A stretch of DNA of 52,942 nucleotides. Origin: Oscillospiraceae bacterium. Its GTDB lineage: Bacteria > Bacillota > Clostridia > Oscillospirales > Acutalibacteraceae. The notes under the pieces are model-generated. The model saw only the letters and a list, made by a program, of their open reading frames with translations, was not told the DNA's origin and searched no databases. A program made the position numbers and the translations under genes. Positions 6,423 through 10,109 of this stretch are shown here, one piece after another; the stretch's first letter is position 1; each line of letters opens with the position of its first letter. Location of the stretch: assembly GCA_015066005.1 (NCBI GenBank), contig SVPF01000016.1, positions 1 through 52,942 on the forward strand, read 5' to 3'.

Positions 6423-6968
6423 TTAGATTTTAAATTGCTTATAAACCACACCGGTTTCAAGGTTTTTCCATAAAAATTCGCCCTTTTCATAAATCATATA
6501 GCTGTGGGGGGAATTTTCCTTTGGAATAGATACCGAACCGCAGTTCATATAAATTTTACCGTCAAGGTCTACTATTTCGGGCACGTGGGTGTGACCGCCA
6601 AGCAAAATGTCACCCTTTGCCATTTCGGGCAGGTTATCCTTTCCGTAAATATGGCCGTGGCTTAAATAAAGGGTTCTATTGTCAAGCGGCATGGTTTTAT
6701 AATCAGCCATTATGGGAAACTGAAGCACCATTTGGTCAACCTCGGCATCGCAGTTGCCCCTTACGCACAAAAGCATATCCTCAAGCGGATTAAGCATTGC
6801 AATAACCTCTTTAGGTGCGTAGCCCTTAGGTAAATCGTTTCGGGGACCGTGGTATAAAATATCGCCTAAAATAAGCACCTTTTCGGGCTTTTCGGCTTCA
6901 ATCGCCTTTAAAAGTAAATCACAATAATATGCACTGCCGTGAATATCTGACGCTATTAAAAATTTCAT
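6423..6968 (-). CDS. YfcE/MJ0936-type metallophosphoesterase
   Basis: 181 residues, the family length. Calcineurin-like metal-binding motifs occur in order: ASDIHGS near the start (D-x-H), LGDILYHG (GD), RGNCD (GNxD), then LSHGH and GGHTH. Members hydrolyse phosphodiesters in vitro; the cellular substrate is generally unknown. The ATG overlaps the stop of the flavin-reductase-like gene (ATGA), so the two are co-translated. Confidence 0.88.
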   Translation of the reverse strand: MKFLIASDIHGSAYYCDLLLKAIEAEKPEKVLILGDILYHGPRNDLPKGYAPKEVIAMLNPLEDMLLCVRGNCDAEVDQMVLQFPIMADYKTMPLDNRTLYLSHGHIYGKDNLPEMAKGDILLGGHTHVPEIVDLDGKIYMNCGSVSIPKENSPHSYMIYEKGEFLWKNLETGVVYKQFKI

Positions 6969-7462
6969 TCCTTAACCAACACCTTTTCAATTTTTCCAAA
7001 AATCATTTTGTGGTAATCCTTTTCGCCATACCATTTAAGCGGAGCCTTATCGGTAAAGCATTCCTCTTTCATTTCCTGCACATATTGCTTTTTGCAAATT
7101 ATAACAAGGCGCGCTTCCTTAAAATAAACCGTATTATCGGCAAAAATGGGTGTTAAACCTGTCATTTCGGTTTTGTTAACTTCCCTACCGCTTAATTTGC
7201 CGCAAATTTTGTGAATATCCTTGTTATCACCGTAAAAAGAAAGGGCATAATAATCACAGTCATTAACAAACTGCATAGTGTATCTTTGCGGGCGGATTAC
7301 CGCAACTGCAGTATCAGCCCCCCACATTTCACCTAAAAATCCCCAAGAGGCTGTCATCATATTGTGACCGTTTTCATCCCCTGCAGAAATTAACATCCAT
7401 TCGTTTGAAATTAAATCAATTATATTTTCTTTAATTTCTTTTGCGCTTATTTCTTTAAACAA
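6965..7462 (-). CDS. Flavin-reductase-like / FMN-binding split-barrel protein
   Basis: About 165 residues. The N-terminal MMTASWGFLGEMW and AVAVIRPQRYT segments and the ALSFYG strand match flavin reductase-like FMN-binding folds used by small flavoproteins of unknown partner. No ATG is available; TTG 7462 (or TTG 7465) lies 5-8 nt after AAAGGTG and is preferred to the GTG at 7471 that overlaps the ribosome binding site. Translationally coupled to the downstream phosphoesterase. Confidence 0.78.
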   Translation of the reverse strand: MFKEISAKEIKENIIDLISNEWMLISAGDENGHNMMTASWGFLGEMWGADTAVAVIRPQRYTMQFVNDCDYYALSFYGDNKDIHKICGKLSGREVNKTEMTGLTPIFADNTVYFKEARLVIICKKQYVQEMKEECFTDKAPLKWYGEKDYHKMIFGKIEKVLVKE

Positions 7463-7497
7463 CAATATCACACCTTTAACAGAATAATTTATATTCT

Positions 7498-7581
7498 TGT
7501 TGCGTCAGCAACATATCGAGTGTTGCTACACATATCGAGTCATTTATGACATATCGAGAATCCGTTCAGGATTCATATCGA
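7498..7581. repeat. Left hairpin array (four hairpins, ATATCGA linkers)
   Basis: Hairpins: TGTTGC/GCAACA (7498-7513, GTCA loop); GTGT/ACAC (7520-7531); GTCAT/ATGAC (7539-7550); GAATCC/GGATTC (7558-7574, GTTCA loop). Each is followed by ATATCGA, with repeat-to-repeat steps of 19, 19 and 24 bp. The stems differ in sequence from one another while the linker is constant. Confidence 0.9.
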
Positions 7582-7586
7582 AAAAC

Positions 7587-7940
7587 TTAATGCATATTAT
7601 TTTTCGCGGTCGTTATTGAAGCAATAAGTTTCCTACGAATAATGCCACCATCATTTTTTAAATTTTTATATGTTTTTTCATCAATTTTTTCTTTTCTATA
7701 AAGCAATTCAAGCCAATAATCCGTTTCCGAACTTTCTTTCAAAGAAAGTTCCAATTTATGTATAAAATCAGCTCGGCTTTGTGCATATTTTGCTTCATGA
7801 AGATTTGCGCCAATAGAAGATGACGCCCTCAACAATTGATTAACATATACACTGCAGCCCTTAATTTCTTCGCATGCATCTGAAACAGCAATAGCAAAAG
7901 TAATGGAATCCTCACGCAATTGGTTTTTATTATGTTCCAA
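7587..7940 (-). CDS. Four-helix-bundle protein (S23/IVS / bAvd-like family)
   Basis: 117 residues from TTG 7940, chosen because AAGGGG lies 7 nt upstream; a longer frame would start inside a hairpin. Family hallmarks are QLLRASSSIGANLHEA, followed by SRADFIHKLELSLKESSETDYWLELL, all helical and amphipathic. Relatives are encoded in 23S rRNA intervening sequences and in diversity-generating retroelements (bAvd), and are thought to bind nucleic acid; the biochemical role of stand-alone members is unknown. Here the gene is embedded in a symmetric pair of hairpin arrays, making those hairpins (as DNA or RNA) the obvious candidate ligand. Confidence 0.85.
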   Translation of the reverse strand: MEHNKNQLREDSITFAIAVSDACEEIKGCSVYVNQLLRASSSIGANLHEAKYAQSRADFIHKLELSLKESSETDYWLELLYRKEKIDEKTYKNLKNDGGIIRRKLIASITTAKNNMH

Positions 7941-7956
7941 AATTATTCCCCTTAAG

Positions 7957-8096
7957 TCGATATGCAAGCTATGCTTGCTCGATATTTTTTCTTCGAAAAA
8001 TCGATATGTTTTTTATTATATTAAAAAACTCGATATGATATGAATTCTCTCAAAACATTCTTGATACATCTATAATTTCAAAAGAATTCATATCGA
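7957..8096. repeat. Right hairpin array (four hairpins, TCGATAT linkers)
   Basis: Hairpins: GCAAGC/GCTTGC (7964-7978, TAT loop); TTTTTC/GAAAAA (7986-8000); GTTTTTTA/TAAAAAAC (8008-8029); and an outer 12-bp stem GATATGAATTCT (8037-8048) with 8083-8094 enclosing a 34-nt loop. They are separated by TCGATAT at steps of 22, 22 and 29 bp; the outermost stem ends in ATATCGA (8090-8096). The linker orientation is the reverse complement of that in the left array. Confidence 0.9.
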
Positions 8097-8135
8097 CAAA
8101 ACAATTATACTATATGTTTTTTTAGTTTGCAATAT

Positions 8136-8164
8136 TTGACTTTAATTACATAATGTGTTATTCT
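8136..8164 (+). promoter_or_regulatory. Sigma-A type promoter
   Basis: TTGACT (8136-8141), 17-bp spacer, TATTCT (8159-8164), 28 bp before the start of the membrane protein at 8193. Confidence 0.6.
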
Positions 8165-8192
8165 TAATTTACAAATTTTAGGAGTGGTATAA

Positions 8193-9827
8193 ATGAAAAA
8201 TAATATTTTAAAGGGCATTATTAAGTGGCTTGTTTCACTTGTAATAATTGCTTTGTCCTATTGGTTTATGCTACCGCCGATCAACTGGCGCAGCCGTGAA
8301 TTTTGGACGTTTTTAATCTGGTCGGTAATTGTTTGTGTGGCAATTAACGCCTTTACCCAAATTTTCGATTTTATAAAAGCAAACGTGGGCAAAAAAATTA
8401 AAATTGACAGCAAAACCCACCTTAATTTAAGCGCTTTGGGTGCACCCATTAAGTTTGCGGTAATTACCATTGTGGCAATTATTGTTTTAAGCGGTGTGGC
8501 GTCCATCATTGGTGCTGAAATTTTCAACGCCAAATCTTATAATAACCTTATAAAAATGTCAGACGGTGACTTTACAAAGGACGTTGCCGAAATAAATATG
8601 GACCAAATACCCATTGTTGACCGTGACACCGCGTCCCGCTTGGCACAAAGAAAATTGGGTGAAATGTCAGATTTAGTTTCGCAATTTGAAATTGAGGATA
8701 TTTACACACAAATTAACTACCGTGGCAAGCCCGTTCGTGTAACCCCTTTAATTTACGGTGACATTATTAAATGGCTTAACAACCAAAAGCAAGGTATTCC
8801 CGCTTATATCACAATTGATATGACCACACAGGAAACTTCGCTTGTAAGGCTTGAAAAGGGCATAAAATATTCCGAAAGCGAATACTTTATGCGTGACCTT
8901 AACCGTGCGCTTCGCTTTAAATACCCCACCAAAATTTTTGGTGATATTTCTTTTGAAATTGATGATGACGGAACACCCTACTGGGTGGCATCCACCGTTA
9001 CCTACCGCATCGGCGTGTGGAGCGGACAGGACATTAACGGCGCCGTGCTTTTGAACGCCATAACAGGCGAAAGCAAATATTATGCCCTTAAGGACATTCC
9101 CACTTGGGTTGACCAGGTGTTTGAGTCGGATATGGTTATACAGCAGCTTGTATATAACGGAAAATACCGTTCGGGCTTTTGGAATTCGGTATTCGGTCAG
9201 CGAGGTGTGCTACAGCCAACCGATGGCTACAATTATTTAGCAATTGATGATGATGTTTATTTATATACAGGTATGACTTCGGTTACAAGCGATGAGTCAA
9301 ACGTAGGCTTTGTGCTTACAAACCTACGCACAAAGGAAACCAAGTTTTATGCAATACCCGGTGCTGAAGAATATTCGGCAATGTCATCAGCCGAGGGTCA
9401 GGTACAGCACCTGAATTACACCTCAACCTTCCCCCTGCTTTTAAACGTTTCCAACAGACCGACATACTTTATGTCACTTAAGGATGCGGCAGGACTTGTT
9501 AAAATGTACGCCTTTGTTGATGTTAATCAGTACCAAATTGTTGGTACGGGTAACAGCGTTGAGGCCGCACAAAGCGATTATATATCAAAGCTTAAGGATG
9601 AAAACGTAAGCGAGGATATTAAACCCGAAACCGCAAGCGGCGTGATTGAAAAAATTAACGCTGTGGTAATTGAAGGTAACACGGTTTATTATATTAAGCT
9701 TCAGGATAACGACGCAATTTATACCGCAAAGGTAACTGTGTCGGATATGCTTCCCTTTACCGAAAAGGGTGCAAGCGTAACACTTACCTTAAATGGTAAA
9801 ACAATTACAAAAATTGAATATAAATAA
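8193..9827 (+). CDS. Uncharacterised membrane protein with large extracytoplasmic domain
   Basis: 544 residues; ATG 8193 follows AGGAGTGG. Three hydrophobic segments (about residues 11-28, 37-60 and 86-110) precede ~430 residues rich in beta-strand and aromatic residues with no long hydrophobic stretch, so most of the protein should lie outside the membrane. There are recurring short motifs of the form ITGESKYYAL and LRTKETKFYAIP, roughly 80 residues apart, which may mark two related beta subdomains. The last ~70 residues look like an OB or SH3-like barrel. I do not recognise the family. Monocistronic, with its own promoter and a strong terminator. Confidence 0.8.
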   Translation: MKNNILKGIIKWLVSLVIIALSYWFMLPPINWRSREFWTFLIWSVIVCVAINAFTQIFDFIKANVGKKIKIDSKTHLNLSALGAPIKFAVITIVAIIVLSGVASIIGAEIFNAKSYNNLIKMSDGDFTKDVAEINMDQIPIVDRDTASRLAQRKLGEMSDLVSQFEIEDIYTQINYRGKPVRVTPLIYGDIIKWLNNQKQGIPAYITIDMTTQETSLVRLEKGIKYSESEYFMRDLNRALRFKYPTKIFGDISFEIDDDGTPYWVASTVTYRIGVWSGQDINGAVLLNAITGESKYYALKDIPTWVDQVFESDMVIQQLVYNGKYRSGFWNSVFGQRGVLQPTDGYNYLAIDDDVYLYTGMTSVTSDESNVGFVLTNLRTKETKFYAIPGAEEYSAMSSAEGQVQHLNYTSTFPLLLNVSNRPTYFMSLKDAAGLVKMYAFVDVNQYQIVGTGNSVEAAQSDYISKLKDENVSEDIKPETASGVIEKINAVVIEGNTVYYIKLQDNDAIYTAKVTVSDMLPFTEKGASVTLTLNGKTITKIEYK

Positions 9828-9888: not shown

Positions 9889-10109
9889 ATCGCTGCGCGA
9901 TTAAATAATAAATAAGAAAGAATAAGAACTTGACCCTTTGACAAAATCAGAGATTTTGAAAGGGTGCCCCAAAACCTTGCCACGCATAGCGTGTAAAAGA
10001 ATAAAATCGGTGTCGGCTTTGCCGACGGATTTATATATTGTGCCGTAGGCACACATTTTTTATTATTTATTATTTTTTCTTTATTCTTTTTTCTTTTGGG
10101 CGTTAGCCC
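9889..10109. repeat. Chain of six hairpins in a non-coding gap
   Basis: The 343-bp gap 9828-10170 contains no gene but a series of short hairpins: ATCGC/GCGAT (9889-9901); a 14-bp stem ACCCTTT..CAAAATC with GATTTTG..AAAGGGT (9933-9965, 2-nt bulge); CACGC/GCGTG (9981-9993); GTCGGC/GCCGAC (10012-10026); TGTGCC/GGCACA (10039-10053); GGGC/GCCC (10098-10109). A purine-rich stretch (9903-9928) and a T-rich stretch (10054-10096) flank the middle. The appearance is that of a MITE-like or composite palindromic repeat. Confidence 0.7.

Follow-up and report, generated by a model that had tools for sequence, protein, structure and literature searches.

The stretch of DNA analysed here (the window, 52,942 nt) is the forward strand of contig SVPF01000016.1 from Oscillospiraceae bacterium GCA_015066005.1, a genome that we refer to as G000. 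In this window, four copies of the heptamer ATATCGA and four copies of TCGATAT form complementary arms that enclose a gene for an S23p-type protein (Table 1). The neighbouring frames, at 6965-7471 on the minus strand and from 8193 onward on the plus strand, diverge from this element and, since one frame points away on either side, the element is intergenic.

An earlier note on this sequence had described the heptamer as a constant 7-bp linker, present as ATATCGA four times on the left and as TCGATAT four times on the right, and this was confirmed copy by copy. It had also claimed four hairpins with perfect stems per side. The four left hairpins (two of them with stems of only 4 bp) and three small right ones are indeed present. 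The fourth right hairpin, in contrast, pairs imperfectly around a long loop, and an additional, oppositely oriented ATATCGA (8090-8096) closes it. For the fold of the whole element, a z-score of -4.46 against 20 shuffles was obtained, and an Rfam scan of 6900-8700 returned no match up to an E-value of 1 and thus no family for the locus.

Table 1. Features of the inserted element in the window
Feature	Position	Strand	Remarks
Complete inserted element	7490..8100	.	Ends approximate; absent from G052 and G027
Left hairpin 1	7499..7512	+	Counterpart of half the centre of gene-less arrays
Heptamer ATATCGA 1	7513..7519	+	
Left hairpin 2	7520..7531	+	
Heptamer ATATCGA 2	7532..7538	+	
Left hairpin 3	7539..7550	+	
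Heptamer ATATCGA 3	7551..7557	+	
Left hairpin 4	7558..7574	+	
Heptamer ATATCGA 4	7575..7581	+	
S23/IVP four-helix-bundle gene	7587..7967	-	PF05635, TIGR02436, AlphaFold model, Foldseek
Heptamer TCGATAT 1	7957..7963	-	
Right hairpin 1	7964..7978	-	
Heptamer TCGATAT 2	7979..7985	-	
Right hairpin 2	7986..8000	-	
Heptamer TCGATAT 3	8001..8007	-	
Right hairpin 3	8008..8029	-	
Heptamer TCGATAT 4	8030..8036	-	
Big imperfect outer hairpin with long loop	8037..8096	.	Hairpin 8037-8094, closed by ATATCGA in opposite orientation (8090-8096)

The window element is an insertion that is absent from two relatives. In a genome of the same genus (G052), whose flanks are 93% identical, 28 bp are found in place of 640 bp of the window (7462-8101), and in a second one (G027, flanks 80-83% identical) 19 bp stand against 630 bp. 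The alignments break at 7461-7495 on the left and at 8102-8126 on the right, and the window locus shows no evident target-site duplication. The idea of a self-contained element, which had been put forward before, is borne out by these two empty sites, and of the unit proposed at the time (7498..8096) the arrays are present, but the inserted segment starts slightly left of 7498.

The affiliation of the encoded protein (in the following IVP) to the S23/IVS/bAvd-type proteins, already suspected in the earlier note, is well supported. It matches PF05635 (E-value 1.6e-18, 67.3 bits at a curated cut-off of 33.8) and TIGR02436 (E-value 2.7e-21, 75.8 bits at a cut-off of 24). Judged by eye, the likelier start codon is a TTG near 7940, which is preceded by AAGGGG. 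The AlphaFold model (pLDDT 91) consists of four helices and is matched by Foldseek to 2rld (E-value 3e-7) and 2gsc (E-value 1e-4), two crystal entries that each list five chains (A-E); these two structures (2gsc, 2rld) were released in 2006 and 2007 under titles that name no function. Across 98 IVP sequences from the genus, the positions that never vary are one Q, one S, one N and two E, and one D, two K, one E and one W hardly vary; in the model, these residues lie on helices 2 and 3. To our knowledge, the window IVP possesses no recognised catalytic motif.

Heptamers, hairpins and IVP genes

The occurrence of hairpin arrays next to other four-helix-bundle genes, which had been suggested as a check, could be demonstrated. 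IVP matches are present in 49 of 61 genomes of the genus, and a subset of these matches was examined as 101 stretches that represent 100 genes (the broken L011 is counted twice). Chains of two or more hairpins with linkers between them were found next to 44 of the 101 stretches, whereas they occurred in none of 99 Markov-shuffled flanks and at none of 400 random places of the window. A mirror-array score of at least 8, which corresponds to eight or more copies of a short word, was reached by 55 of the 96 upstream stretches that remained after short flanks had been dropped, while only 10 of 600 random segments and 5 of 192 shuffles scored as high. Not all arrays of the genus contain hairpins, as 22 of the 99 called arrays are hairpin-free tandem repeats. 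G000 itself possesses four further IVP genes, all of them with arrays that, by eye, use other words, i.e. other constant linkers.

To follow the word ATATCGA, 53 loci of named relatives were collected, mostly from assemblies of ruminant-gut Clostridia and Oscillospiraceae, some of which are the same genomes as those in the genus set (e.g. L259 and G005). In 31 of the 32 loci with at least 64% protein identity to the window IVP, at least three exact copies of ATATCGA lie near the gene, and the remaining locus starts at a contig edge. At 62% identity the word is kept in one locus (L274) but not in another (L275), and below this value it shifts, for instance to ATATCGC or ATATCAC. Word similarity and protein identity are correlated throughout the genus (Mantel r=0.70, with 0 of 5000 permutations as high) in a set of 71 non-redundant hairpin-type genes, in which some automatic word calls look wrong (e.g. 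L273); this set remained of 77 hairpin-type genes after removal of redundancy at 95%, drawn from 99 scoring at least 7, and genes with stops or fewer than 85 residues were left out. Arrays of a different word, CATCATT, were found in 3 of 15 genomes, and these are the ones in which a CATCATT-type IVP had been found (L067, L090 and, judged by eye, the broken L011); places with CATCATT that lack an IVP match exist in G009 and G013. Going by the sequences, each IVP clade keeps its own word. Physical linkage could account for part of the correlation between word and protein. However, the word is constant among the copies within an element while the stems change, which argues for selection on the word.

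The stems of the ATATCGA elements change and nevertheless stay paired, as had been proposed from the window alone. In 24 complete elements with four heptamers on each side, 485 of 514 outer stem cells are paired, whereas with partners shuffled between elements the mean pairing of the individual hairpins falls to 52-84%. Least convincing is hairpin A2, for which the shuffled maximum equals the observed value of 0.95. When single strands of these elements are folded, the mirror heptamers pair with each other, with all four rungs formed in 9 of the 24 elements and a shifted register in many others. Within the array centre lies a copy that is complementary to the outermost heptamer together with the 5' arm of A2. 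It agrees at 10-12 of 12 positions in 23 of the 24 elements and at 6 of 12 in L250, which makes an alternative long-range pairing possible.

Two layouts exist. In 25 of the 53 named loci, read by eye, two arrays facing away from a common centre (<<<< centre >>>>, complete or partial) precede the gene, and in four (L254, L271, L272 and L273) the gene lies between two arrays as in the window (>>>> gene <<<<). This apparent circular permutation was considered as a proof of a circular intermediate, but such an intermediate is not needed, since a deletion from a gene between two arrays, as suggested by L024, can explain the order as well; the idea was therefore dropped.

Outside the genus, the picture is a different one with regard to the hairpins. 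We analysed 37 IVP genes of other genera, taken from distant named loci and from a phylum-wide sample with one locus from each of 30 genomes, out of 42 that gave a match; L289, which lies at a contig end, was dropped and L232 gave no usable frame. A run with a period of 7 nt was detected beside 27 of these 37 genes and was undetected in the other 10. The same test with lags of 5, 6, 8, 9 and 10 gave 0, 0, 1, 0 and 0 of 37, only 2 of 400 random window segments and 5 of 73 stretches approximately 1 kb off at the same loci contained a 7-nt run, and in the pooled lag profile only 7, 14, 21 and 28 stand out as clear peaks. The two flanks are complementary to each other in 28 of the 37 cases, in comparison to 1 of 300 controls. 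If each side is scored alone, the upstream side reaches a score of at least 8 in only 5 of 29 genes, as the enclosing form escapes this kind of scoring. The inverted tandem heptamers of the other genera are mostly devoid of hairpins. Hairpins as the conserved feature therefore had to be given up, and the heptamer is the more general one.

Some of these genes reside in stable RNA genes. An Rfam scan of 38 loci placed L225, L231 and L232 inside LSU rRNA and L237 and L240, which belong to one genus, inside RNase P RNA; at L242, a tRNA lies just upstream of the IVP locus. Inside LSU rRNA, 7-nt runs occur upstream and downstream of the gene at L225 and downstream of it at L231, so that the classical intervening sequence is built in the same way. 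In the RNase P RNA genes of the two genomes with L237 and L240, the IVP genes are enclosed by heptamer-like arms. RNase P RNA intervening sequences would be a further target among the stable RNAs.

Probable movement of the elements and their relation to known systems

The linker-plus-hairpin arrays recur at other places and, as described above, their stems stay paired while changing, so that neither of the refuting observations named in the earlier note was made. A pattern of three spaced ATATCGA copies gave 18 partly overlapping matches on seven contigs of G000, four of them in the window locus, and occurred in 12 of 61 genomes of the genus, while the reversed pattern as a control was matched neither in G000 nor in any of the 61 genomes. 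The arrays on the other six contigs (C2, C8, C27, C50, C52 and C53) are gene-less, with no IVP match on any of these contigs. In G009, which together with G000 has the most ATATCGA matches among the 61 genomes, arrays are found at eleven places and the gene at one of them (C75). Complete gene-less arrays have a size of about 175-200 bp. The six from G000 share 95.5-99.5% identity among themselves and 97.2-99.4% with three arrays of G027, although the flanks of the window locus reach only 80-83% between the two genomes. They sit within a larger repeated stretch and were therefore perhaps carried by larger repeats within their own genome. In seven of the 12 array-bearing genomes (G002, G013, G027, G037, G038, G050 and G056), no ATATCGA-type IVP was found among the IVP genes examined, which are a subset of the IVP matches from genomes of which several are incomplete. 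A further dispersed sequence in G000 is the 77-bp segment at 9999-10075 of the window, of which complete copies with 100% identity exist at ten places, several of them near contig ends, in addition to partial copies; in G052 it is 91-95% identical.

We regard it as fairly probable that the window locus harbours a complete small mobile element akin to the intervening sequences of 23S rRNA, whose IVP recognises its own heptamer and thereby enables movement. The IVP might bind the clade-specific heptamer on the folded array, either as RNA or as extruded DNA, and this recognition would allow the element as well as its gene-less derivatives to move. In the clade of the window, each heptamer is followed by a hairpin, and the strand can therefore form a ladder in which the rungs are 7 bp long and every junction bears two hairpins. 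Binding of the IVP to its own heptamer on a folded array, in the service of movement, is the most likely interpretation that we infer from these data.

An array that acts in cis, as an RNA element or operator, would need no movement of its own. The IVP would then bind its own leader and control expression or processing by RNase III, the elements would have spread by ordinary recombination and the gene-less arrays would be remnants of gene loss. It fits this explanation that the array of the ATATCGA clade abuts the ribosome binding site, that a promoter-like sequence can be seen by eye between array and gene in some tRNA-type loci (L013 and L149), and that the RNase III site of the Coxiella IVS is located at the start of the first heptamer according to its published description (PMC4990558). 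We nevertheless consider it unlikely, since gene-less places outnumber the gene by six to one in G000 and by ten to one in G009, and since complementary arrays occupy both sides of the gene in the 28 cases from other genera and in the window.

The window element has its closest counterpart in the 23S rRNA intervening sequences of Coxiella, Leptospira and others, in which an S23/IVP gene is enclosed by inverted repeats, as in the window. For the Coxiella IVS, GACAGAT heptamers ahead of S23p and a terminal stem of 28 bp are described (PMC4990558). By our reckoning, four heptamers would fill these 28 bp. The window copy differs from these sequences by its location outside any 23S rRNA gene, by the hairpin that follows each heptamer and by its dispersed gene-less copies. 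We regard the window element as a probable relative of the 23S rRNA intervening sequence that is intergenic and expanded by hairpins, and the heptamer as the putative binding site of its protein.

The fold of the window protein, as modelled, also resembles Avd of the ribonucleoprotein of diversity-generating retroelements (4dwl and 8ub7, TM-scores of 0.74-0.78), but with E-values of 0.11 or worse and an identity of about 12%; the match to 4dwl has a TM-score of 0.78 at an E-value of 0.11. Together with the location of IVP elements in or beside stable RNA genes, this resemblance would agree with a movement via RNA, in which the IVP acts like Avd and a reverse transcriptase is provided in trans. 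Such a route appears very unlikely, as RVT_1 is matched neither in G000 (88% complete) nor in G009 (94% complete); G052, G027 and G001 contain one RVT_1 match each.

In other respects the elements are reminiscent of REP/REPIN sequences with their RAYT partners, for which dispersed palindromes, a short constant tag and an excess of gene-less copies over the gene are described (PMC3733652). The window-type elements share all of these properties. However, the partner protein is a four-helix bundle and not a Y1 transposase, and the words have approximately 7 nt, are clade-specific and occur in mirror arrays of four plus four. From CRISPR arrays the window-type elements are distinguished by the segments between the repeats, which are palindromic and not unique non-palindromic spacers.

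Intergenic tandem heptamers have been reported from Beggiatoaceae (TAACTGA; PMC4679880) and, of the GGGAATC type, from Xanthomonas and Nostoc (PMC4692102). In the former paper, a mechanism for their horizontal spread is described as not evident, and the term S23 is absent from the main text of both, whereas in the present study such heptamers are tied to IVP genes. The window element belongs to the known S23/IVP intervening-sequence elements, but the general tie between IVP genes and heptamer arrays is apparently new, as our literature searches yielded no report of it. Two unexplained subjects, the S23/IVP proteins and the tandem heptamers, are hereby joined, since IVP genes carry their own heptamers, and the old puzzle of gene and repeats becomes testable. 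The rRNA intervening sequence likewise becomes one member of a broader group of insertions, which are also located in RNase P RNA and behind tRNA genes.

tRNA genes and cargo of other IVP elements

The 3' end of a co-directional tRNA gene lies at most 450 bp upstream of 45 of the 101 IVP stretches of the genus (44 of 100 genes), in comparison to 27 of 5000 random positions. This location recalls the integrase islands at tRNA genes, and Y1_Tnp matches are present in G000 (five) and G009 (two), so that a host integrase or, as in the REP/RAYT systems, an HUH transposase might do the chemistry with the IVP as a passenger or accessory. We think this quite improbable, because no integrase was noticed by eye among the listed open reading frames of the inserts that were read, G042 (91% complete) contains ATATCGA arrays and the gene but no Y1_Tnp match, and the 53 named loci, which are mostly of the ATATCGA type, all lack a tRNA ahead of the gene. 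Since tRNA 3' ends precede IVP stretches of the genus but no named locus, the choice of the target differs by clade.

One tRNA-Gly gene is followed in four genomes by four different sequences, three of which contain an IVP gene (one of them broken), and pairwise homology at this site stops 4-14 nt past the tRNA. In a methyltransferase-like gene of G000, the insert starts within the 3' end of the gene and, as judged by eye, still encodes its C-terminus.

The IVP gene is frequently followed by a further gene, and in 19 of the 101 cases the frames of the two share exactly 4 nt. We scanned 20 next-gene proteins, namely 19 of the 46 whose genes lie no more than 60 bp away and one encoded behind an IVP-less array (L205), and 14 of these 20 passed a Pfam cut-off. 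The families comprise NUDIX, GNAT, SUKH, VanZ, DUF218, ASCH, AAA_18, peptidase S51, methyltransferase, ion channel and pyrophosphatase. A given array with its IVP was found together with different tRNAs and next genes, and a given next gene together with different IVPs. Some IVP genes precede housekeeping genes, for instance a parC-like one (names assigned by eye).

These members carry a cassette-like cargo, and they suggest a source for the exchange of such cargo at the tRNA genes of gut Clostridia. It is conceivable, although we rate it as rather unlikely, that the IVP and its heptamer arrays constitute a new type of integration system, which acts in stable RNA genes and at the 3' ends of genes for tRNA and others by recognition of its own heptamer and carries interchangeable cargo. 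If this were true, the IVP would take the place of the integrase gene, with the cargo often coupled to it by the 4-nt overlap, and many unexplained tandem heptamers in bacteria would be attachment or landing sites of this system.

Duplications of tRNA 3' ends were considered as attachment repeats of the IVP elements. This idea was weakened, since the repeat belongs mostly to a separate unit of approximately 170 bp with ends tailored to the tRNA. An exception is L141 (G038:C13), where an exact repeat of 20 nt from the tRNA-Gly 3' end stands between two tandem IVP genes. A second tandem pair exists at L117 (G044:C2), and its two members have different next genes.

The units of approximately 170 bp are located directly 3' of tRNA genes (L201, L202, L203, L204, L068, L090, L148 and L149). 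At their start the T-loop region is copied in inverted form, and at their end the last 18-20 nt of the same tRNA are repeated; because of these tailored ends they are not ordinary repeats of fixed sequence. Their hairpin core is similar, and in several of them it includes AACAGTCC..GGACTGTT and GGCAACGAGC... IVP elements frequently come after the duplicated tRNA end of such units. A comparison of L203 and L209 revealed that the 1.4 kb upstream of the tRNA-Gly are 99% identical between G001 and G000 and that this identity ends 8 nt past the tRNA; the flank of the window element is only 74% identical to G001.
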